Source: Phytoactinopolyspora mesophila (GTDB lineage: Bacteria; Actinomycetota; Actinomycetes; Jiangellales; Jiangellaceae). Taken from it: a stretch of DNA of 64,000 nt. Positions 3,977 to 50,118 of this stretch are shown one piece after another. Where the stretch lies: assembly GCF_010122465.1 (NCBI RefSeq), contig NZ_WLZY01000005.1:304901-368900 (forward strand), written 5' to 3'. Positions within the stretch are counted from its first letter, which is position 1. Each line of letters begins with the position of its first letter. Made by a program: the position numbers and the translations under genes. The notes beneath the pieces are model-generated. The model searched no databases and had not been told where the DNA came from. It saw only the letters and a list, made by a program, of their open reading frames with translations.

Positions 3977-5485
3977 ATGACCACAGGCCGCGAGTACTTG
4001 CGTGTATCCGTCGATCGATCCGGGCGCCAGAAGTCCAACGATGAGCAGCAGGAAGACAACCGTCGCTGCTGGTCAGAGACGGATTTCGGCGAACCGTATC
4101 GTGATGTGGGGTCAGCCAGCCGTCACAGCCGAACGCGGCGAGACGGCTTTGATGACCTGCTGGATGATCTCCGAACCGACCGCTTCGGGGCAGAGCATCT
4201 GGTGCTCTGGGAGTCCAGCAGGGGTAGCCGCAAGGTGGGTGAGTGGGTCGAGCTGTTGGAGCTGTGTGAGCAGCGGTCGGTCAAGATCGCCGTCACCACG
4301 CACGGCCGGATCTACGACCCCAGCAATAGCCGCGACCGGAAAAGCCTCATCGAGGATGCGGTGGACTCCGAGTACGAATCGAGCAAGATCAGCACACGCG
4401 TCCGCCGTGATGCCGCCGCGCTGGCAGCGGCCGGTCACCCACATGGTCCCGTGCGGTTCGGCTACCGACGCCGCTACGACCCGGATACCAGGCGGATCGC
4501 AGGTGAGGAGCCAGATCCGGCTGAGGCTCCCGTCATCGAGGAGTTGTTCGCCCGCCTGGAGGCTGGCGATTCGCTGCGCGCAATCGCCACTGACTACGAG
4601 CGCCGGGGCATCACGACTCGCACCGGTAAAACGATGTCGCCGCAGTTCCTGCGACATTTCGCGACCAACCCCGCTTATGCCGGGCTGCGTCTGCACGTGC
4701 CAGGTCGCCGCAACGGTCGCGTCAAGCCCGGCGAAGGCTCGCTGACCGAGGGGCAATGGCCCGCGATCGTTAGCATGTCCCGGTGGCACGCAGTCCAGAA
4801 GCTGCTCGGTGATCCGACACGCAGGACCAACCACGGGCGAAACGTCCGTCGTGGCGCGGGCAGACACTTCCTGAGCATGATCGCGGTGTGCGACCCCTGC
4901 GGCTCCGTCCTCATCGTCGGCTCCGAGAACCGCACGAATCGCGCGCCGTTCTATAGGTGCCAGCAGGCCGGACATGTCCAGGTGAGCAAGGCCGGTCTAG
5001 ATGACGTGGCCGAGAGGCTGATTATCAGCTATTTACGTGATCGGCGAAACACCCACGTAGACCCAGGTGCCGACACCGAGCTAGCCGCGCTGCGTGATCA
5101 GATCGCAGCCATCCAGGTCGAGCTGGACGACCTCGCGGATCAGGTCGGGCGTGGTGATCTGACGGCAGCGCTTGCCGCTCGCGCTGAGCCCGGCATCCGG
5201 AAACGGCTAGAAACGGCTCAGCAGCGCGAGATCGAGCTGAGCACACCGGGCGTGCTCAGGCGGCTGTTGGGTCCTGGGGCCGACATCGCTGCTCGCTGGG
5301 CGGATATGCCGATGTCAGCGAAACGCGAAGCCGCGCGGCTGGTGCTGTCACCTGGATACGTCGGGCAGCTCCGTGTTACGCCAAACCCGGTGCCAGGCAG
5401 ACGAGGAACACCTGTCGAAGAACGAGTTGTGTTGCTGAGAAAAGAAACCAACGAATTAAACTCACCGAATTCAATTGAAGAGTAG
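3977..5485 (+). CDS. int: Large serine recombinase (phage integrase)
   Basis: This 502-residue protein catalyses site-specific integration between attP and the cpaF attB. The resolvase domain occupies about residues 5-150, with the nucleophile in YLRVS (Ser11) and the conserved R and D-rich positions after it (RRDGFDDLL). A recombinase DNA-binding domain follows (160-260), then a zinc ribbon with C305, C308 and C328, then a coiled-coil segment near 360-430 that in this family controls directionality. Length is typical for phiC31/Bxb1-type integrases. It lies directly next to attL, as expected. No recombination directionality factor was identified. Confidence 0.93.
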   Translation: MTTGREYLRVSVDRSGRQKSNDEQQEDNRRCWSETDFGEPYRDVGSASRHSRTRRDGFDDLLDDLRTDRFGAEHLVLWESSRGSRKVGEWVELLELCEQRSVKIAVTTHGRIYDPSNSRDRKSLIEDAVDSEYESSKISTRVRRDAAALAAAGHPHGPVRFGYRRRYDPDTRRIAGEEPDPAEAPVIEELFARLEAGDSLRAIATDYERRGITTRTGKTMSPQFLRHFATNPAYAGLRLHVPGRRNGRVKPGEGSLTEGQWPAIVSMSRWHAVQKLLGDPTRRTNHGRNVRRGAGRHFLSMIAVCDPCGSVLIVGSENRTNRAPFYRCQQAGHVQVSKAGLDDVAERLIISYLRDRRNTHVDPGADTELAALRDQIAAIQVELDDLADQVGRGDLTAALAARAEPGIRKRLETAQQREIELSTPGVLRRLLGPGADIAARWADMPMSAKREAARLVLSPGYVGQLRVTPNPVPGRRGTPVEERVVLLRKETNELNSPNSIEE

Positions 5486-40986: not shown

Positions 40987-42063
40987 ATGGCTATACCCGC
41001 AGAAGCACACACGGCATATTTGTACGATCGAAGCGGGATGGTCCGCATCGGTGAAATCACGGATGTTTCGGACCTGTCGTGGTCCCGAGAGCGCAACAGC
41101 GTCAGCTCGGCACAGGTGACCGTTATCAACCCAACGCCTGAGTGTTGCGGGCTACTGTCTAGGGTCGAGCCGTGGCGTAACGAGCTGGTGATCTATCGGG
41201 GCAACGAGCGGGTGTGGGATGGAGTCGTAATGACCCCACAGTGGTCGAGAGAGGCGGTCACGATCACCGCCCGCGACATGCTAATTTGGACGCAGCGGGC
41301 CATCCTGAAAACCGGCTACACCGACAACAGGCGTTCAGTGGTCGATAGATCCCGCCTGATCTTGCAAAGTGAGCTGGCCAGATTTGAAAATCTCAACCCA
41401 CCTATCAATGTGCTGCCATTTCTGCAAATTTATGCCAGCAACGTGACCCGGCAGAGCCGTGAGATTTTAGATTTTGAGAAATATGTGCTCGATGAGCTGG
41501 AAGACCTAGCGACCGCTGGCGCGCATTTCGCCACAGTCGGGCGCAGCATCTACATCTACAACCGCACCAGCGATGCTCTCGGATCGTCAGCCACGGTCAG
41601 CGAGAACGATTTCGTTGGTGACGACATCACCATCACAGCCCACGGCATGGACTTCGGCACCTACGCCGCCGTGACCGATGGGGAAGGCCACGCCGGAGAC
41701 GCTGGCGGGACCGATCCGTACTATGGCCTGGTCGAACGGCTCACCACGCAGCGTCCAGAAGGCCGCGACGATGGCGATCCGGTCGATACCGAAGCTCTAG
41801 CCGAGCAGGCCAGGCTCGATCTGGCCGGACGCAACCCGGTGCCGGTACGGCTGCGGGTCGGCTCCGGTGCCACGCTCGACCCCCGAACGGCGCTGACCAT
41901 CGATGACCTGGTGCCGGGCAGGCGCGTGCCAATCCGCACAGAGATGATGTGCCGCACCGTGACCTCTGAGCAGGTCGTAGACCGCGTACAGGTCACCGAA
42001 AACGCTGGTGGCGAGCGGATACAGGTCACGCTTGACCGAGCACCCTTCACAGGAGGCGACTAG
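40987..42063 (+). CDS. Minor tail / baseplate hub protein (Gp37-like)
   Basis: The 358-residue protein has the Gp37-like hub pattern: SWSRERNSVSSAQVTV, W.NELVIYRGNERVWDGVVM, ITARDMLIWTQRAIL, and a C-terminal half with LTIDDLVPGRRVPIR and VTENAGGERIQVTLD. It starts three bases after the preceding stop, implying translational coupling. Confidence 0.75.
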   Translation: MAIPAEAHTAYLYDRSGMVRIGEITDVSDLSWSRERNSVSSAQVTVINPTPECCGLLSRVEPWRNELVIYRGNERVWDGVVMTPQWSREAVTITARDMLIWTQRAILKTGYTDNRRSVVDRSRLILQSELARFENLNPPINVLPFLQIYASNVTRQSREILDFEKYVLDELEDLATAGAHFATVGRSIYIYNRTSDALGSSATVSENDFVGDDITITAHGMDFGTYAAVTDGEGHAGDAGGTDPYYGLVERLTTQRPEGRDDGDPVDTEALAEQARLDLAGRNPVPVRLRVGSGATLDPRTALTIDDLVPGRRVPIRTEMMCRTVTSEQVVDRVQVTENAGGERIQVTLDRAPFTGGD

Positions 42064-42263
42064 TGGATCTCACCAGCGAACCCGAAACGATGGACGGCTG
42101 GATGCGCCGCATGGAGAAACGAGTTGAATCGCTGGAGCGACACCGCCACCCGAGGCCAGCCACGCTCAGGACGCAGAGCTGGATTGTGCGCGAAGACGAT
42201 GACGGCAACCTTGTGGCCGAACCAGTCAACGGTGGCCCGGCAGTTGTGATCGCCTCGTCATAG
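42063..42263 (+). CDS. Small tail-operon protein
   Basis: The 66-residue product begins with a helical coil-like segment (MDGWMRRMEKRVESLERHRH) and a short beta end. GTG 42063 overlaps the previous stop. It is the last gene of the rightward structural operon and is followed by a terminator. In many phages an endolysin would follow, but none does here. Confidence 0.6.
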   Translation: MDLTSEPETMDGWMRRMEKRVESLERHRHPRPATLRTQSWIVREDDDGNLVAEPVNGGPAVVIASS

Positions 42264-42271
42264 ACGCGAAA

Positions 42272-42303
42272 GCGCCCCCGGTCCGGTGATGGACCAGGGG
42301 CGC
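42272..42303. terminator. Terminator ending the structural operon
   Basis: GCGCCCCCGGTCC pairs with GGACCAGGGGCGC (12 of 13), flanked by GCGAAA and TTTCGC, between the last tail gene and the convergent lipoprotein gene. Confidence 0.8.
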
Positions 42304-42322
42304 AAGTTTCGCCTACCTCAGC

Positions 42323-43198
42323 TCAAAAGCTGAGCTTGCAGTGAGGTTTATTAGATCCGGACGTATCCGCAGCAACGAGAATCTCAGACTCGCATGTATA
42401 GATTCGGCTATCGACTCGGATGACTAGATCTGGAAGCATCCATGCCTCACCATAGGCGAAGCTTAGATTCTCTGGATGCCAAAAATGAGGCGCAAGCCAA
42501 GCGGCAATGTCAGATTTTATTTCACTCGCCTCATAGGGACGGATAGTGTCAATCTTTACTGTCATCGTGAACCGACCTGGCGGGTTCATGGTGTTGAACT
42601 CGAACTTCTCCAGGCTATAGTCGAACTCGATCACATCATCCAGTTCGGAGATTAGTTTGTCTTCAATTTCTTCAAACTGAGCTGGAATAACCTCTACCAT
42701 CTCATCTTGACGCTTGATGTAGTCTTCTTCCGTCGGCGTCTCGGTGGGCTCAGGCTCTGTCGCTGTCTCTATTTCTTGTTCGTTGTCAGAGCATAGATCG
42801 CGAAAGAATACGTAGGTGGTCTTTGAGTCCCAGTGTGGTTGTAGCTCTTGTCCGATGTCCGAAGCTAAGAATTCGGCTGTAAAACTGTTCGAGAAGGGAT
42901 GCAACCCCATCGAGCGAACATCACCACAGATGTCTGTGCTGTCACCTAACCCAACCTCAAGTGCGGCCGTTGTGATCTCCTCATCGCTGTTTTCCGGCGA
43001 CATCCCGATCTCATTCCAAACGGGATCAAGTTCGGTCTCAACCGCCGTTGCTGTTTCTGTTTCTGTTGCTGCTTCGGTTTCGGCCGTGGAGATCGGCTCA
43101 GCGTTTGTGTTGCTGTCGTCATCCCCGCCGCATGCTGTCGCCACGAGCGCGGCGATGATTGCTAACCCAATTTTCCTCATTCTCATTCTCATTCTCAT
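42323..43198 (-). CDS. Prophage-encoded lipoprotein
   Basis: The 291-residue protein has a signal peptide ending in VATAC, a lipidation Cys followed by GGDDD, then an acidic Thr/Glu-rich linker and a globular domain. It should be anchored on the outer face of the membrane. Four in-frame ATG codons arise from a 6-bp repeat (ATGAGA) at 43178-43201; starting at the last (43180) gives the most typical signal peptide. The gene faces inwards from the right prophage end, the position of lysogenic-conversion genes. Superinfection exclusion or host surface change is a hypothesis. Confidence 0.75.
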   Translation of the reverse strand: MRMRMRMRKIGLAIIAALVATACGGDDDSNTNAEPISTAETEAATETETATAVETELDPVWNEIGMSPENSDEEITTAALEVGLGDSTDICGDVRSMGLHPFSNSFTAEFLASDIGQELQPHWDSKTTYVFFRDLCSDNEQEIETATEPEPTETPTEEDYIKRQDEMVEVIPAQFEEIEDKLISELDDVIEFDYSLEKFEFNTMNPPGRFTMTVKIDTIRPYEASEIKSDIAAWLAPHFWHPENLSFAYGEAWMLPDLVIRVDSRIYTCESEILVAADTSGSNKPHCKLSF

Positions 43199-43201
43199 TC
43201 T
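43178..43201. repeat. Hexanucleotide repeat CATTCT x4 at the lipoprotein start
   Basis: Four exact units encode Met-Arg repeats on the minus strand and provide four start codons with one ribosome site (GGAGAAG) upstream. Confidence 0.85.
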
Positions 43202-43527
43202 ACTTCTCCATCTTCTTTAACTGATTCAGATTTAATGACCAGAGCGCGTGCAATCATCTGCTCAAAAACGTCTGCGGCTGGCCGATTCGCCAGCTCTGCA
43301 ACGTTGGCAATGGCGAACGACGCGATTGAGGCCAGCACCAGCGTCACAGCGGCGACCTCTTGCGGAGATAGGCCGACCAACTGCGTTTTCGCCTCTTGCG
43401 TGATCATCTCCAGATCACCAGGGTGAAAGTCGTGGATATCGGTTGCCTTGATCACACTTCGTATCAAATCGACAGCGCGTTGAGCCGAGTTGTCAGAACT
43501 CACTGTTTGCCTCCGGGTGGTCGTCAT
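43195..43527 (-). CDS. Hypothetical prophage protein upstream of the lipoprotein
   Basis: The 110-residue protein MTTTRRQTVSSDNSAQRAVD... has a hydrophobic helix (EVAAVTLVLASIASFAIANV) flanked by polar helices. The stop overlaps the first lipoprotein ATG, so both are translated together. The frame stays open upstream to 43728, but that part overlaps another gene. Function is unknown. Confidence 0.6.
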   Translation of the reverse strand: MTTTRRQTVSSDNSAQRAVDLIRSVIKATDIHDFHPGDLEMITQEAKTQLVGLSPQEVAAVTLVLASIASFAIANVAELANRPAADVFEQMIARALVIKSESVKEDGEVE

Positions 43528-43532
43528 ATTTA

Positions 43533-43799
43533 TTACGATCCCGCATATCTGCGTCGAGCATCGACCAAGGCACTGAGAAGTCTCCCAAAACTCGACCAGC
43601 TCAACCGCATATGACCGGTCGCGATGATCATTGGCTGTGGTCGTCCATCGGCGTCGGCTACCAGCTCTACCGACAGCTCGTGACTGGTGTCGTCGCTGGC
43701 ATGGATCTTGGTGATGTACACCCGGCAACGCTCGCCGGGGTCGATGTGGACATGATCACACCATGGTGTGTGTCCTGATCTTTGTACTCTGTCTGGCAT
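43533..43799 (-). CDS. Hypothetical prophage protein
   Basis: The 88-residue protein is beta-rich (CRVYITKIHASDDTSHELSV ELVADADGRP) with a C-terminal helix (FGRLLSALVDARRRY). GGAGGCAGGG precedes ATG 43799. It is the first gene of a minus-strand set with 43195 and the lipoprotein, separated by five bases from the next gene. Confidence 0.6.
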   Translation of the reverse strand: MPDRVQRSGHTPWCDHVHIDPGERCRVYITKIHASDDTSHELSVELVADADGRPQPMIIATGHMRLSWSSFGRLLSALVDARRRYAGS

Positions 43800-43829
43800 G
43801 GTCCCTGCCTCCTACTAGGTGGGTTCCTA

Positions 43830-43863
43830 GGCCCTGTCTGGTGTGGACGCACCTGGCAGGGCC
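43830..43863. terminator. Hairpin between divergent prophage genes
   Basis: GGCCCTG (43830-43836) and CAGGGCC (43857-43863) pair, with a possible inner stem. There is no clear T-run, so it could be a regulatory structure. Confidence 0.35.
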
Positions 43864-43930
43864 GTTCTGTGTTTGGTCGTTGACGATGCACACGATACGC
43901 GCTTATAGGCGTGGACTCCACGCGGAGCGC

Positions 43931-44104
43931 ATGCTGATAAGCGTGGCACGTGGCAGAAACCTCAACCTGTACATCCGGGCGGATGATGAGCCGCTGTGGG
44001 CGTGGGCTGAGCAAGAAGCCGCCCGGCGACGTCTCGCACTGTCCCAGTTCATGGCCATGCTCATCGAGCGTTATCGCGACGACTCAGAGGGCAACGAATC
44101 CTGA
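43931..44104 (+). CDS. Small ribbon-helix-helix-like DNA-binding protein
   Basis: The 57-residue protein MLISVARGRNLNLYIRADDE PLWAWAEQEAARRRLALSQF... matches the RHH layout: one beta strand (NLNLYIR), then two helices (LWAWAEQEAARRR and SQFMAMLIERY). CGGAG precedes ATG 43931; a Met at 43886 would add 15 residues. Together with the 15774 HTH protein it is a candidate regulator of lysogeny. Confidence 0.6.
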   Translation: MLISVARGRNLNLYIRADDEPLWAWAEQEAARRRLALSQFMAMLIERYRDDSEGNES

Positions 44105-44244
44105 GCGCCGCTGTCTCCAGTACGCTCGGATACGAGCACGTCCAGGCGCACGACCTGCCGTTGCAGGTTCCAAAGCGCCGTCTGAACGGCAGCTTGAGCC
44201 TCGCTCACCCGGTCAACCTGCTCACGAATCTCAGGCGTGGTCAT
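44071..44244 (-). CDS. Small coiled-coil prophage protein
   Basis: The 57-residue frame MTTPEIREQVDRVSEAQAAV QTALWNLQRQVVRL... has heptad-like hydrophobic spacing. ATG 44244 overlaps the end of the preceding minus gene by 14 bases, and its 3' end overlaps the convergent RHH gene by 34 bases. Composition and coupling support it; function unknown. Confidence 0.5.
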   Translation of the reverse strand: MTTPEIREQVDRVSEAQAAVQTALWNLQRQVVRLDVLVSERTGDSGAQDSLPSESSR

Positions 44245-44527
44245 CGGCCGTCACCATCTCCCGGCACTCGCGCTCCGCGCGAAGACGCGCCAGCAGCTCA
44301 TCAGTGCGGGCGTTCGATGCATCGTCGTAGCGTCGAGCCTGAGTGACCAGCTCGGATCGAGCCTGATGCAGAGCCTGGATCATCGCGTCGATGGTCTCGA
44401 TGGAGTCGGTAGCCGCCTGGCGCTGGTGCGGGTTGTCGGGGTCGTAATCCCCGCCGTTCCAGGCGCTCAGCGCTGTGGCGAGACTTCGTACGGATGTCTC
44501 CAGTTCGGTGGTTATGGTTGTTGCCAC
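44231..44527 (-). CDS. Hypothetical helical prophage protein next to attR
   Basis: The 98-residue protein is mainly helical (SVRSLATALSAWNGGDYDPD then ATDSIETIDAMIQALHQARS) with a basic coil near the end. It is the last complete gene before attR, read inwards. No family is recognised. Promoter and ribosome site would be within the 90 bp between it and attR. Confidence 0.55.
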   Translation of the reverse strand: MATTITTELETSVRSLATALSAWNGGDYDPDNPHQRQAATDSIETIDAMIQALHQARSELVTQARRYDDASNARTDELLARLRAERECREMVTADDHA

Positions 44528-44609
44528 GGTCGGACCTCCCGAGTCCGCATCGAGGGACCGGCCAGCGGTGGAATTGCTGTGTCGGTCCCGTTGGACAATC
44601 GGAAGTAGA

Positions 44610-44655
44610 CGGTTACTAACGCAGTGGCAGCGTGCACATCTTGGTGACCGCCTCG
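44610..44655 (+). other. attR (phage-host junction of the serine integrase)
   Basis: Phage arm CGGTTACTA (44610-44618) leads to GGCAG (44626-44630) and the shared GT at 44632-44633; to the right is host cpaF. The phage arm is the inverted counterpart of the arm at 3954-3962 in attL. Confidence 0.8.
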
Positions 44656-45572
44656 CGGGCGTTGTTCGCGTGGATGCTGCACATTCCGGGTAGCCCGGAG
44701 TTGAGCGCGATCAGCAGATCGAGGCATTCATGTTGTCTGACCTCGCCGACCACGATGCGCTGCGGCCGCATCCGCAGGGCTTCCTTGATCAGCTGACGCA
44801 ATGTGATCTCGCCGGTGCCCTCCAGGCTGGCCTGCCTGGTTTGCATGCGGACGATATCCGCGATCGGTGCGCGAAGTTCGAAGACTTCCTCACATGTGAT
44901 CACCCTCTCCCGGGCCGGAACCGCGGAGACCAGTGAATTCAAGAGGGTTGTCTTTCCAGCTTGAGTGCCGCCGGAGACGATGATGTTCAGCCCCGCCGCG
45001 ACGGCGGCCTCCAAGAATGCCGCGGCCTGCTCGCTGAGGGAACGGAGCTTGACTAGATCATCGAGACCGGTGGCATAGAGCACGTGTTTGCGGATATTGA
45101 CTGCCCAGTGTTCTGAGGTGATATCCGGGATAACTACATGCAGGCGGCTGCCATCAGGGAGGGCGGCGTCGACAAACGGGCTGGAGAAGTCCACTCGCCG
45201 CCCCGAGCTTTTCAGCATCCGCTCCACGAGGCCACGGACCTCGTCGGCCGTGAGGATGGTGGTGGTCAGTTCACTGCGACCGCGGCGTGCAATGAAGATC
45301 CGGTCCGGCTGGTTGATCCAGATCTCCTCGACCTCAGGATCATCCAGGTATCGCTGAAGTGGCCCGTAGCCGGCCACGATGTCGGTCACCGAACGTGCGA
45401 CCGCGCCCGGGTCTTCTAGTGGGGGCAGCGGCCGGGCCAGACTCCTCTCGCCGTAGGCGTTGACGACGTCGTCCACTATTCGCCGGACGGCGTCACGTTG
45501 GGTTACCGGATCGATGCCCTCCCGGCGCACGACGTCGCGCACCTCGGCATCGATGATCTCGACTGCGCCCAT
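44616..45572 (-). pseudogene. cpaF: cpaF/tadA secretion ATPase, N-terminal part truncated by the prophage
   Basis: The reading frame gives 318 residues: an N-terminal domain (GYGPLQRYLDDPEVEEIWIN), Walker A GGTQAGKT (201-208), Walker B region IVVGE (273-277) and the His-box CSIHAN (298-303). At KMCTLPL it crosses into phage DNA and ends one codon later. The missing 94 C-terminal residues are at 3656-3940. CpaF is the hexameric ATPase powering Flp pilus assembly; loss of the C-terminal lobe should abolish hexamer function. It is the first gene of the pilus operon, so downstream genes also lose their promoter. Confidence 0.93.
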
Positions 45573-45775
45573 GACATGTTCTACCCACCGAAGAAGTCGA
45601 ATTGGCGATACAAGGCGTTGATCATGCCGTGAACGACCGACTCGTTCAACCCCCGATCCGGTTTATCCACAGGTACCGAGAATCAGTGATCATCAACGTA
45701 TATGTCGGATCTCAGGTGGCATTCGCGCCCCCGGAAAGGGATAAATGGAAGCGCCCGTAACCTCGCGCCCCCTGT

Positions 45776-45866
45776 CGGTGATCGTGAGCGGATTTTGGTT
45801 GTTCCGGCGGGTGCCCACCAGGCGCTTTGCTGCCGGGAAACAACCAAAATCCGCTCACGATCACCG
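45776..45866. repeat. Perfect 28-bp inverted repeat (large intergenic hairpin)
   Basis: The arms 45776-45803 and 45839-45866 are exact inverted copies, starting CGGTGATCGTGAGCGGATTT, with a 35-bp spacer. It lies in the 358-bp divergent gap between cpaF and prfB, which otherwise shows no gene. It may be a REP/MITE-like element or a regulatory cruciform. Confidence 0.8.
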
Positions 45867-45931
45867 GCACGCGGTGGCTGGGCCGGGCGACGTGGGTCGG
45901 GAGGGCGTTGAGACGCGTACCCTTGGGAGAC

Positions 45932-47050
45932 GTGGCAACACGCGATATTGACGCTGAGATCCAAGAACTGTCCCAAATGCTGGCCGGGGTCGAGCACGTC
46001 CTCGAGCCGGAGAAGCTCAAGGAGCAGATCGACGAACTCGAGGAGCAGGCCGCCGCGCCGGACCTCTGGGACGACGTCGACCGTGCCCAGAAGGTCACCA
46101 GCCGGCTTTCGTATGCGCAGGCCGAGCTGCGGAAGGTGAGTGAGCTGCGGCAGCGTGTCGAAGATCTGCCGGTCATGCTGGAACTCGGCCGCGATGAGGG
46201 AGACGCCGACGCGATGGCCGAGGTGAGTAAGGAGCTGGATCAACTCCAGCGCCTCATCGCCGATCTCGAGATCCGGACCCTGCTGTCCGGCGAGTATGAC
46301 GAGCGCGAAGCAGTTGTCACCATCCGGTCCGGCGCCGGCGGCGTCGATGCGGCCGACTTCGCCGAGATGCTGCTGCGTATGTACACCCGGTGGGCTGAGC
46401 GGCACGGCTATCGAGCCGACGTGCTGGATACGTCCTACGCGGAAGAAGCCGGCCTGAAGTCGGCCACCTTCGAGGTCAAGGCTCCCTTCGCATACGGGAA
46501 ACTCTCCGTCGAGGCCGGGACGCACCGTCTGGTGCGGATCTCCCCGTTCGACAACCAAGGCCGGCGGCAGACGTCGTTCGCCGCGGTCGAGGTGGTGCCG
46601 CTCATCGAGAAGACCGACCACATCGACATTCCCGAGGCCGACATCCGGGTTGACGTGTTCCGCTCGTCCGGCCCAGGTGGGCAGAGCGTCAACACGACCG
46701 ACTCCGCCGTCCGGCTCACCCACATCCCGACCGGCACCGTCGTGTCGATGCAGAACGAGAAGTCCCAGATCCAGAACCGTGCGGCGGCCATGAGGGTCCT
46801 TCAGTCCCGGCTGCTGCTCCTGAAGCGCCAGGAAGAAGAGGCGCAGCAGAAGGAGCTCGCGGGCGACGTCAAGGCGTCTTGGGGCGATCAGATGCGCTCA
46901 TACGTCCTCCACCCGTACCAGATGGTGAAGGACCTGCGGACCGAGTACGAGGTAGGCAACCCGCAGGCGGTCTTCGACGGCGACCTCGACGGGTTCCTGG
47001 AAGCTGGCATTCGGTGGCGCAAACAGCAAGAGGGCAACACCGACTCCTGA
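45932..47050 (+). CDS. prfB: Peptide chain release factor 2
   Basis: The 372-residue factor recognises UGA/UAA and triggers peptide release. Visible are the helical N-terminus ([20 protein letters not shown]), the SPF stop-codon motif in [15 protein letters not shown] and the catalytic GGQ in [19 protein letters not shown] 45932 follows GGGAG; the frame is open further upstream but passes through the inverted repeat. There is no programmed frameshift as in E. coli. In actinobacteria prfB is commonly followed by ftsEX, as here. Confidence 0.93.
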
Positions 47051-47297
47051 AACACCGGGTTTGGTCCGAACACCAGCGGGTGCTCCCGGCAGCCGGGGCA
47101 CGGGTGGCGACAGTGCGCATCGAGGTGAGTTGAGTCACATGCGCGGGAATCAGTTGCGGCAACAATAATTTTATGCCGTGTCGGATCTGGTGTCCGGTCC
47201 GTACCTTGTGTACAGTTCGGGCTGGTCGCCACAGTAGCGCGATCCAGGCCTTCGGGGGGCCTGCTTAGTAGCAGTATTTGAGAGGCCGGTATTTCGC

Positions 47298-48182
47298 ATG
47301 CCATCTTCTGTGACATCTACGCGCCCTAATAGGGGCCGATTAGCGCTTTCCGCGGGTATGGCCAGCCTGCTGACCGGTGGTGCGCTCCTGGCTGTAGGAC
47401 TCGTCTCGACCGCCTCGGCCGTGACCGCGGCAGACGGTCACGTTACACACGCGGACTTCTATGAATATGAGAAGCCCCATCCGAAGACCTGTGAGGAAGC
47501 GGGGCTTGACGGAGAACTGCTTATCCGGGTCGAGAGCGAGAACGGTGGCGGCGCGGACAACGCCGACGTCAAGGGCACCATTTCGGGTGATGACAACCAG
47601 TATCTCAACGTGGAACTGCTCAACGACGACAAGATCATTACGGGTGTGTTCATCAAGGCTGGCACTCCGTACCGCGTCTACACGGGCGGCGCCGAGAAAG
47701 ACATGACAGGGCCGCCGAAGTACGAGGGCGGAGATAAGTTCCGGGCGATCAGCAACTGGTTCGTCTGCGGCGAGGAAAAGCCGACCGAGACGCCGGACCC
47801 GACTGAGACGCCGGATCCCACGGAGACGCCGGACCCGACCGAGACGCCGGACCCGACCGAGACGCCGGACCCGACCGAAACTCCGGATCCCACGGAGACG
47901 CCGGACCCGACCGAGACTCCGGACCCCACGGAGACTCCGGATCCGACCGAGACGCCGGACCCCACCGAGGACCCCACGGAAGAGCCGACCGAGGACCCCA
48001 CGGACGAGCCGACCGACAGCCCGGAGCCGACCACACCTCCGGAGGATGACGAGGACAACGACGAGCAACTGCCGGACACCGGTTCGGCCGGCACGGCCTG
48101 GATGGTCGGTGGCGCGGCGCTGCTGCTGCTCGGCGGCGGCATGCTCGCCTTCGGTCGTCGTACCGCCGGTGGCATGGCCTGA
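47298..48182 (+). CDS. LPXTG cell-wall-anchored protein with PTETPD repeats
   Basis: The 294-residue surface protein has a signal peptide (hydrophobic core at 22-45, cut near ASA), a globular domain to about 160, eleven TETPDP repeats (about 163-228), an acidic spacer, then sorting signal LPDTG, a hydrophobic helix (MVGGAALLLLGGGMLAFG) and RRT. A sortase would anchor it to peptidoglycan. The repeat region spans 47782-47980 in DNA and could vary in number. Its ligand and role are unknown. Confidence 0.88.
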   Translation: MPSSVTSTRPNRGRLALSAGMASLLTGGALLAVGLVSTASAVTAADGHVTHADFYEYEKPHPKTCEEAGLDGELLIRVESENGGGADNADVKGTISGDDNQYLNVELLNDDKIITGVFIKAGTPYRVYTGGAEKDMTGPPKYEGGDKFRAISNWFVCGEEKPTETPDPTETPDPTETPDPTETPDPTETPDPTETPDPTETPDPTETPDPTETPDPTETPDPTEDPTEEPTEDPTDEPTDSPEPTTPPEDDEDNDEQLPDTGSAGTAWMVGGAALLLLGGGMLAFGRRTAGGMA

Positions 48183-48248
48183 TCAGCAACGACGCTCCAT
48201 CACACCGATAGCCGGTAGAGGTTCCCCTGCTCATCGGTAGTGGCCTAC

Positions 48249-48284
48249 GGCCGGGCGTCCCTCCTCTAGGAGGGGCGCCCGGCC
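48249..48284 (+). terminator. Strong hairpin terminator after LPXTG gene
   Basis: GGCCGGGCG.CCCTCCT pairs with AGGAGGGGCGCCCGGCC with a two-base loop. In the 300-bp gap 48183-48489 I see no gene besides this hairpin. Confidence 0.75.
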
Positions 48285-48489
48285 TGCTGTGCGCACCGCC
48301 CGGCCCATCGGCAATCTTGATTCGGGCCTGCGGTGCTCCGAGTGCAATCGCCACGGTGAGTCGTGAAACACGACGGTTCGGCCCGCTCGGCCGTGCCGTA
48401 TCACCGAAGACGACGTACACTCGGGTGCGGCGTTTACGCGAGCGACCAGTTCCGGACGTGGAAGATCCCCATATCGTCGGCGAGGCAAC

Positions 48490-49179
48490 GTGATCCGATT
48501 CGACACTGTCACCAAGGTGTACCCCACCCAGTCGGGGCCGGCTTTGGACAACTTGACCATGGAGGTCGAGCGAGGAGAGTTCGTCTTCCTCGTGGGCCCT
48601 TCGGGCTCTGGCAAGTCGACCTTCCTGCGCTTGGTGCTGAAGGAGGAACGGCCGACGTCGGGCCGGATCAGGGTGGCCGGCAAGGACCTGCACCGGCTGT
48701 CGAACTGGAAGGTGCCGCACCTGCGGCGCCGTATCGGCACCGTCTTCCAGGACTTCCGCCTGTTGCCCAACAAGACGGTCTTCGAGAATGTCGCTTTCGC
48801 GCTGCAGGTGATCGGCAAACCCCGGCGGCAGATCCTGCGGGACGTGCCCGCGGTGCTGGATCTCGTCGGGCTGGACGGCAAGCAAGACCGGATGCCCGAT
48901 CAGCTCTCCGGTGGTGAGCAGCAGCGGGTAGCGGTGGCCAGAGCGTTCGTGAACCGGCCGTTGATTCTGCTGGCCGACGAGCCCACCGGGAACCTTGACC
49001 CGGCCACAAGCGTCGGAATCATGAAGCTGCTGGACCGAATCAACCGGACGGGTACCACTGTCGTCATGGCCACACACGACCAATCGATCGTCGACCAGAT
49101 GCGCAAGCGGGTCATTCAGCTCGAGCACGGCCGGCTGGTGCGAGACCAGTCCCGGGGCGTGTACGGCTACACGCGCTGA
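48490..49179 (+). CDS. ftsE: Cell division ATP-binding protein FtsE
   Basis: This 229-residue ABC ATPase has Walker [11 protein letters not shown]-loop FQDFRLL, signature LSGGEQQR, Walker B LILLADEP and the switch His in ATHD. Its length and sequence are typical for FtsE. With FtsX it forms a membrane complex that activates peptidoglycan hydrolases at the septum rather than transporting a solute. GTG start; ftsX follows 36 bp later. Confidence 0.95.
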
Positions 49180-49215
49180 CCGCCAAGCCCTCTCTCACCC
49201 TTACGGAATCAAGCG

Positions 49216-50118
49216 ATGCGCTTCCAGTATGTCTTGTCCGAGATCGCGACCGGCCTCCGGCGCAATCTCACGATGACCATTGCGGTCGTCATCACCGTCT
49301 CCATTTCGATCGCCCTGTTCGGCACCGGGCTGTTGATCCGTGCCCAGTCCGAGGCGACCAAGGGCTACTGGTACGACAAGGTCGAGATCTCGGTGTTCAT
49401 GTGCAACGCCTACTCGGTTGCGGAGAACTGCGCCGGGGGTGAGGTCAGCGACAACGAGCGGGAGACGATTCTGCAGACCCTGGAGGGCCATCCCGAGGTC
49501 GCGGAGGTCTTCTACGAGTCTCAGCAAGAGGCGTACGACCGGTTCACCGAGCCCCTGGACGACCCGGTGGCAGAGGTCATCACTCCGGACCAGTTGCAAG
49601 AGGCATTCCGGGTCGCATTGGTCGATCCTGATCAATACGACGGCGTGGTCTCTGCCGTCGCGGGATTGCCGGGGGTGCAGAATGTCCATGATCAACGAGA
49701 AGTGCTGGGGCCGCTGTTCAGACTCCTGGACTGGTTCCAAGTCGGGGCTATTGTCATCGCGGTGATCCAAGTGGTGGCGGCCACATTGTTGATCGCTAAT
49801 ACCATCCGTCTCGCGGCGTTCAGTCGACGGCGAGAGACGGGGATCATGCGCCTGGTGGGCGCGTCGAACTTCTACATTCAGTTGCCCTTTATTCTGGAGG
49901 CCGCGATCGCGGGGCTCATTGGGTCCATTCTGGGCTGTGCGGCGGTGTTCGCCCTGCAAGAGGTGGCGGTATCGCGCCTGCTCGCGCCCAACTTCACCTT
50001 CACCGCATGGGTCAGTCAGGGTGACGTGTGGATGATGGTTCCATGGCTGTTGCTGACAGGTGTGCTCATCTCGGCCTTTGCGTCATTTATCACACTTCGC
50101 CGCTATTTGCGGGTCTAA
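49216..50118 (+). CDS. ftsX: Cell division protein FtsX
   Basis: The 300-residue membrane protein has TM1 at about 19-43, a large extracellular loop (45-165, with Cys pair CNAYSVAENC), then TM2 (172-196), TM3 (220-245) and TM4 (272-292), the FtsX topology. The loop binds and activates an outside hydrolase, most likely the product of the next gene. Confidence 0.95.
   Translation: MRFQYVLSEIATGLRRNLTMTIAVVITVSISIALFGTGLLIRAQSEATKGYWYDKVEISVFMCNAYSVAENCAGGEVSDNERETILQTLEGHPEVAEVFYESQQEAYDRFTEPLDDPVAEVITPDQLQEAFRVALVDPDQYDGVVSAVAGLPGVQNVHDQREVLGPLFRLLDWFQVGAIVIAVIQVVAATLLIANTIRLAAFSRRRETGIMRLVGASNFYIQLPFILEAAIAGLIGSILGCAAVFALQEVAVSRLLAPNFTFTAWVSQGDVWMMVPWLLLTGVLISAFASFITLRRYLRV

Follow-up and report, generated by a model that had tools for sequence, protein, structure and literature searches.

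ERIC sequences and MITEs are palindromic intergenic elements of about 50–130 bp. REP sequences comprise the GTAG and CGTC super-families, and the GTAG REPs have been tied to RAYT transposases, according to the passages of Di Nocera et al. (2013; PMC3733652) on which we draw. In these passages REP and BIME elements are palindromic, occur in many copies and as inverted dimers with several types per organism, and lie in convergent or unidirectional gaps near gene 3' ends, where their terminus often gives the stop codon; in all these respects they resemble the family F1 described below. REPINs, in the parts of Bertels and Rainey (2011; PMC3116915) used here, are like F1 non-autonomous inverted pairs of short units. 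The inverted USS pairs in Haemophilus terminators (excerpts of PMC5217627) share with F1 a short repeated word, an arrangement as dyad pairs and a place at gene 3' ends.

Here we describe a hairpin from the window, by which we mean the whole stretch of 64,000 nucleotides analysed. The original prediction took it for a REPIN/MITE-like element or for a control site of one of its two flanking genes. Our results suggested that it is probably a copy of a non-autonomous, REP-like interspersed palindrome, which would be copied by a factor acting in trans, would persist at gene 3' ends, and is present in the window as a minority insertion.

The inverted repeat between cpaF and prfB

The left arm reads CGGTGATCGTGAGCGGATTTTGGTTGTT, and the right arm is its exact reverse complement (Table 1), which confirmed the reported perfect 28-bp inverted repeat with a 35-bp loop. 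A repeat search extended the pair to arms of 36 nt at 92% (45768-45803 and 45839-45874). We folded 45760-45880 as RNA and obtained -85.9 kcal/mol on the + strand (z -11.4) and -78.3 kcal/mol on the - strand (z -8.3), with 0/200 shuffles as good in either case; both strands fold far more stably than shuffled sequence. The element lies, as predicted, in a divergent gap, between prfB on the + strand and an ORF for a secretion ATPase on the - strand. No known RNA family was matched: the best Rfam hit over the element scored 28.1 bits, where the gathering score is 63. An origin from a plasmid or phage was likewise rejected, with no match to plasmids or phages at E 0.01 and no exact F1 pattern in viral contigs.

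Table 1. Parts of the inverted repeat and the two adjacent genes, in window coordinates
Feature	Coordinates	Strand	Basis
Left perfect arm, 28 bp	45776..45803	+	sequence and repeat search
Right perfect arm, 28 bp	45839..45866	-	sequence and repeat search
35-nt spacer	45804..45838		no middle half-site at <=2 mismatches in the window copy, unlike FFR/FRR copies
Half-site core F, GTGATCGTGAGC	45778..45789	+	core scan
Half-site core R, GTGATCGTGAGC on the - strand	45853..45864	-	core scan
Imperfect outward extension, left arm	45768..45775		36-nt arms at 92%; complementary flanks in the 86-87 bp class
Imperfect outward extension, right arm	45867..45874		36-nt arms at 92%; complementary flanks in the 86-87 bp class
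prfB, peptide chain release factor 2	45932..47050	+	TIGR00020, 496 bits; start as script-called
CpaF/TadA-type secretion ATPase ORF	44616..45572	-	PF00437 above cut-off, TIGR03819 below its cut-off

The surroundings contain a prophage-like insert of about 40.7 kb (window 3944-44620), which splits the cpaF/tadA gene and cuts off its 3' part. The congener G003 is continuous across it, and window matches to that genome stop at about 3943 and restart at 44621. Just within the left edge of the insert, at 3977-5485, lies a serine integrase (PF00239, PF07508). No long att word common to both edges was found, the longest shared word near them having 5 bp. This integrase, 40 kb from the element, is the sole recombinase identified in the window. 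The ORF list for 42000-50000, which gives ORFs without individual annotation, is consistent with the earlier statement that no transposase lies near.

Family F1 and its relatives

In order to count copies, we searched with a 20-mer taken from the arm, tolerating up to 3 mismatches. It is expected by chance 0.02 times in the window and was found twice, as the two arms; in the 6.5-Mb source genome (G000) it occurred 27 times forward and 37 times reverse, 64 in all, against 0 for the reversed control. The inverted pair GATCGTGAG...CTCACGATC, in a first pattern allowing spans up to 83 bp between the 9-mers, was found 51 times with 0 in the control, and so the search for further copies proposed with the prediction was positive. 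Fifty listed pairs correspond to 43 distinct places, since the four-site (FFRR) elements count twice. Stretches of the same genome selected independently of F1, 280 kb in all, contained no exact core, which is below what the whole-genome counts predict. The hairpin next to prfB therefore has dozens of fellow copies in the genome and is not peculiar to prfB or cpaF.

We then read 58 F1 elements of the source genome, allowing <=2 mismatches in the core. Their layout is modular. The half-site is GTGATCGTGAGC-N8-G[CT], that is, the core, eight free bases, G, and then C or T, and the main lengths follow 54 + 33n (about 54, 87 and 120 bp). Thirty-five elements have 86-87 bp, 17 have 119-120 bp, and 6 have 54-61 bp. 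The shortest are F-R; those of 86-87 bp run forward..reverse (F..R), with a recognisable third half-site in some copies (FFR or FRR); the longest are FFRR. In the FFRR class the inner half-sites mostly meet at GTCGCTATAGCGAC or near variants, and the outer ones mostly run on as GCCC(T/C)C. The layout scan had no span bound and was made on loci from the arm-hit and span-bounded pair searches, as a consequence of which the 54-bp forms may be under-counted. Among exact 12-bp cores in the loci fetched for F1, 99/107 are matched by an exact inverted copy no more than 130 bp away, and for this reason we ruled out a word of the uptake-sequence type. A degenerate F1-type region at L097:3252-3436 of the source genome contains a stretch of Ns that probably marks an assembly gap in repeat sequence.

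The two larger classes differ in the pairing of their arms. In the 86-87 bp class, 25/36 pairs change on both sides, giving 163 cells against 83.7 in shuffles (0/500); kinship of the sequences can itself exceed shuffles, and partners slid by 1-3 columns gave only 39-65 cells. The free bases of this class (positions 13-20) are complementary within a copy at 0.79 against 0.57 permuted, the first outer flank at 0.56 against 0.47, and the TGATC..GATCA ends are paired in 35/35 sequences (set A1). In the 119-120 bp class no arm covariation was found, and it fits protein sites better than a hairpin for that reason. On this difference in covariation, the 86-87 bp elements resemble a hairpin or perfect palindrome that is being maintained, and the 119-120 bp elements a bipartite protein site.

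Next to F1 stand several sister families. The exact F1 pair was found, among 99 genomes, only in the source genome (51), in G003 (4), and in a distant member of the class, G086 (6). The exact 22-base pattern occurred among genome contigs only in the MAG Actinomycetota BP_173, which corresponds to G086 (the source genome is possibly excluded from that set). The strict 16-base centre GGTCGCTATAGCGACC was found phylum-wide only in the source genome, once, among 396. In G003 the element is present with different cores (GTGATCGTTGCC, GTGATCGTCGCC), in 54-, 87- and 120-bp forms, and the centre GTCGCTATNGCGAC occurs 56/53 times; with different arms this centre is present in G005, G033, G034 and G055. 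The interiors are lineage-specific. Families F3 (TGATCATGAACA...) and F4 (TTGATCATGGGC...) were found in the source genome as well.

Family F2 (GTGATCATTGGCTTTTGACTACCG-GATC-...) is a 52-bp palindrome of G003. Its half-site matched 105/101 times there, 13/8 times in G000, 2/3 times in G004, and 0 times in G001, G002 and G005, and about 100 of the G003 copies are near-identical. Among F2 pairs read from fetched stretches, 32/35 have <=2 mismatches per half-site while their flanks differ; in the two singles left, the second arm is degenerate. In each copy the left flank is C-rich and the right flank G-rich, and over 38 copies the two flanks of a copy match as complements at 0.81, against 0.62 after permutation (z 9.7). 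Three G003 copies (L193, L199:5459, L204) have flanks self-complementary for the 16 bases shown and different from copy to copy. Single half-units of F1 and F2 (4 tested) fold no better than shuffles.

A more general pattern, TGATCATN{30,60}ATGATCA, selects inverted TGATCAT ends 30-60 bp apart. Such pairs are present in 21/22 genomes of the bacterial family, with 7-214 each (153 in the source genome, 214 in G003); none was found in G007, which is 81% complete, and the control pattern matched in 2/99 genomes. Among 148 genomes drawn from the class, 72 had a match, including 11/11 of the bacterial family; counts below about 5 mean little, because the pattern catches chance matches in coding DNA. 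Outside the bacterial family, 16/137 class genomes have five or more pairs. We inspected 7 of these 16: in G026, G050, G077, G092, G482 and G492 the pairs look mostly palindromic, with interiors mostly their own, G492 having FFR/FRR-like layouts as well; those of G514, like those of many low-count genomes, are not palindromic-looking. F1 is one family of a superfamily of TGATCRT-bounded palindromes, of which several are co-resident in these genomes. The TGATCAT form is present in nearly the whole bacterial family and patchy elsewhere in the class.

Gene ends, orthologous sites and competing explanations

Gene context was assigned with a home-made codon-usage gene caller trained on ORFs of the source genome, and the following figures rest on its calls and not on curated annotation. 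Of the 58 F1 elements, 26 fall in tandem gaps, 21 in convergent gaps and 9 in divergent gaps; 1 overlaps an ORF, and 1 is unclear. For 159 palindromes of all families, from fetched stretches of the source genome and G003, the numbers were 78 tandem, 56 convergent and 16 divergent, 7 being within called ORFs and 2 unclear. Tandem palindromes are nearer the 3' end in 65/78 cases, at a median of 19 bp from the stop and 81 bp from the start. The background of 20 G003 stretches comprises 7504 convergent, 32874 tandem and 13473 divergent intergenic bases. Gene 3' ends are preferred; the palindromes are strongly over-represented in convergent gaps and under-represented in divergent ones, and the window copy belongs to the minority type.

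This distribution could be read as that of host terminators, namely two-way hairpins without a U-tract whose similarity would come from a recognition motif at the base of the stem. The 3'-end position and the excess in convergent gaps agree with this explanation, as does the finding that for 13/58 F1 elements the TGA of the element is the stop codon called for an adjacent gene. In 43 convergent gaps of G003, taken from stretches picked because they hold elements, a TGATC-type palindrome is present in 18 and a different inverted repeat in 10, and 15 hold none above score. Different palindromes also occupy the same orthologous gene end: F3 in G000 and F1 in G003 at L159:9278, an F1-type element in G000 and F2 at L200:7114, and at L067:4059 a 120-bp element in one species and a 32-bp mini-hairpin in the other. 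Such cases, which speak against our main reading, could also mean a host function. However, terminators would require neither an invariant 12-bp core nor fixed 33-bp steps, and 16/159 copies are divergent. In 45500-46000, around the window copy, there were 0 terminator-like sites with a GC-rich hairpin followed by a U-tract. Wobble pairs showed no overall sense-strand asymmetry in 48 tandem elements paired at >=75% (G-T 45 against A-C 37); the counts were 25 against 10 for F1 alone and 79 against 53 in an unfiltered first pass. We consider a role in termination plausible from position, and unlikely that the elements are primarily host terminators.

The palindromes could alternatively be immobile binding sites of a conserved actinobacterial DNA-binding protein of nucleoid or architectural type. 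The bipartite half-site with its free N8, the 33-bp spacing and the FFRR class without covariation would suit a protein, and so would the centre GTCGCTATAGCGAC common to G005, G033, G034 and G055. Against this, copy number swings between congeners and is zero in many genomes, the F2 copies are near-identical though their flanks differ, and the site upstream of prfB is absent in 4/4 congeners. We regard this explanation as quite improbable.

Presence and absence of elements also differ between species. Two FFRR copies are orthologous between the source genome and G003 (L099/L106, 111/120 identical; L164/L154, 108/119) and clearly vertically inherited, and hence some copies are old and conserved, which counts against our main reading. 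At L066/L156 (88/119) and L096/L159 (85/116) a long element is present in both species with no more likeness than random pairs (median 86 matches in 204 cross pairs), and L095/L105 (95/120) is in between. By eye, no palindrome was found in the other species for L094:2018, L094:6695, L097:1981, the window copy and the F3 element at L161:2164. The same holds for the G003 F2 copies L154:11028 and L200:1327, which have no counterpart in the aligned G000 sequence; G000 also lacks the C-rich and G-rich flanks there, and the gene end itself is altered at L154:11028. These unoccupied F2 sites support insertion. The synteny comparison gives cases and not rates, since the presence of an element was the ground for selecting most of the G003 stretches.

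Two further observations were made in G003. At L159:11025-12144 a 338-aa gene with an AbiEi_4-type N-terminus (25.0 bits, at cut-off) lies between two direct-repeat F1 elements, and the source genome aligns there as one element without that stretch. On L199 (C34:535000-545000), three F2 copies lie within 6 kb, each at a synteny break, with intervening segments that match different contigs of the source genome; these breaks could be due to recombination at palindromes or to an assembly artefact.

Another candidate explanation is that the elements are classical MITEs, derived from a DDE transposon that shares their terminal repeats. Like MITEs, the elements are short and multi-copy and have terminal inverted repeats, F2 looks burst-like, and there are unoccupied sites in G000. 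Yet none of the G003 F2 half-sites that were listed or read was seen to belong to an autonomous transposon with the same ends, and no target-site duplication was visible at the two unoccupied F2 sites, whose flanks are too diverged for exact insertion ends. The arms make up nearly the whole element, and the F2 singles have a degenerate second arm. A MITE origin in the strict sense is thus very unlikely.

A control site evolved for prfB and/or cpaF is a highly improbable explanation. Proximity favours it, with the called prfB start 67 bp past the outer end of core R and the called cpaF start 205 bp from the element, and in G001 an unrelated inverted repeat with 13-bp arms (L181:6874-6917) stands in the same cpaF-prfB gap. 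However, 4/4 congeners have no F1 element upstream of prfB, dozens of copies stand at other genes, and only 9/58 of the source genome's elements are in divergent gaps; in G004, cpaF is not a neighbour of prfB. Local control was rejected on the absence in congeners and the copy number, and this half of the original prediction was not supported. In its divergent gap the window copy would be a minority insertion that most likely serves neither prfB nor cpaF specifically. Movement as a REPIN by a RAYT (Y1 transposase) is hardly credible despite the two inverted half-units, the 3'-end location and the high copy number, and was rejected, since PF01797 was found in 0/12 genomes, high-copy ones included, while the control was positive in 5/14 known genomes. 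Single half-units (4 tested) moreover fold no better than shuffles.

Proposed spread and comparison with known systems

Of the REPIN/MITE-like label, what survives is a multi-copy, mostly intergenic inverted repeat with relatives in other species, so that a single copy without conservation no longer comes into question; the narrower sense of a true REPIN, with its RAYT and its layout, is not supported, and a classical MITE, for which neither parent transposon nor target duplication was seen, is very unlikely. For the REP-like interspersed palindrome that we favour, the following course can be proposed. F1 itself is a dyad of half-sites GTGATCGTGAGC-N8-G[CT], with further half-sites placed around a central 54-bp pair in 33-bp steps. 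The elements would spread by copying through a putative trans-acting factor that reads the conserved TGATCRT ends together with the dyad. We infer such a system because the elements carry neither REP tag and because PF01797 was found in 0/12 genomes; Y1_Tnp was the model tried, and no mobilising enzyme was found with it. Persistence just behind stop codons may reflect either the little harm done there or a use as two-way 3'-end structure, as terminator or roadblock.

A broader proposal is more tentative. The TGATCRT superfamily in this class of actinobacteria could perhaps be spread by a putative novel trans-acting system distinct from Y1/RAYT, which would recognise the bipartite dyad, write new perfect palindromes with copy-specific self-complementary flanks, and thereby supply interchangeable 3'-end elements. 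We hold this to be possible and rather doubtful at present. Mobility of the elements would imply an undiscovered mobiliser, to be sought through comparative genomics. Should the elements terminate transcription, they would go some way to explaining how such high-GC genomes end transcripts without U-tracts.

No report of these palindromes was found among the literature matches listed, as judged from titles and the openings of abstracts, most subscription journals being outside the search. The words 'actinobacteria', 'streptomyces' and 'GTGATC' do not occur in the main text of PMC3733652. In comparison with the uptake words of Haemophilus, as excerpted from PMC5217627, the F1 word is rarely single (99/107 exact cores paired in the fetched loci). 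In comparison with the REPIN/RAYT system, in the parts of PMC3116915 cited, the Y1 transposase was found in 0/12 genomes. The likeness to ERIC and MITEs is one of general description, with neither parent transposon nor duplication found here.

The closest likeness is to REP sequences. Their location, mostly intergenic, in convergent or unidirectional gaps and close to 3' ends, is also that of the present elements. Differences lie in the build. According to the cited portions of PMC3733652, members of the GTAG and CGTC super-families are hairpins of 20-40 bp that end on one side in an unpaired tag, whereas here the TGATCRT ends are paired, the F1 and F2 half-units do not form hairpins better than shuffles (4 tested), and the elements are dyads of about 50-120 bp with 33-bp steps. 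Taken together, the present elements are a variant of the REP-like kind, with different ends and no RAYT found, whose layout and distribution are of interest. Tagged REP repeats have been described mainly from proteobacteria, as far as those portions of PMC3733652 go, and we present here an apparently analogous set from a group of actinobacteria, with a modular 33-bp architecture, several co-resident families and up to some hundreds of copies.
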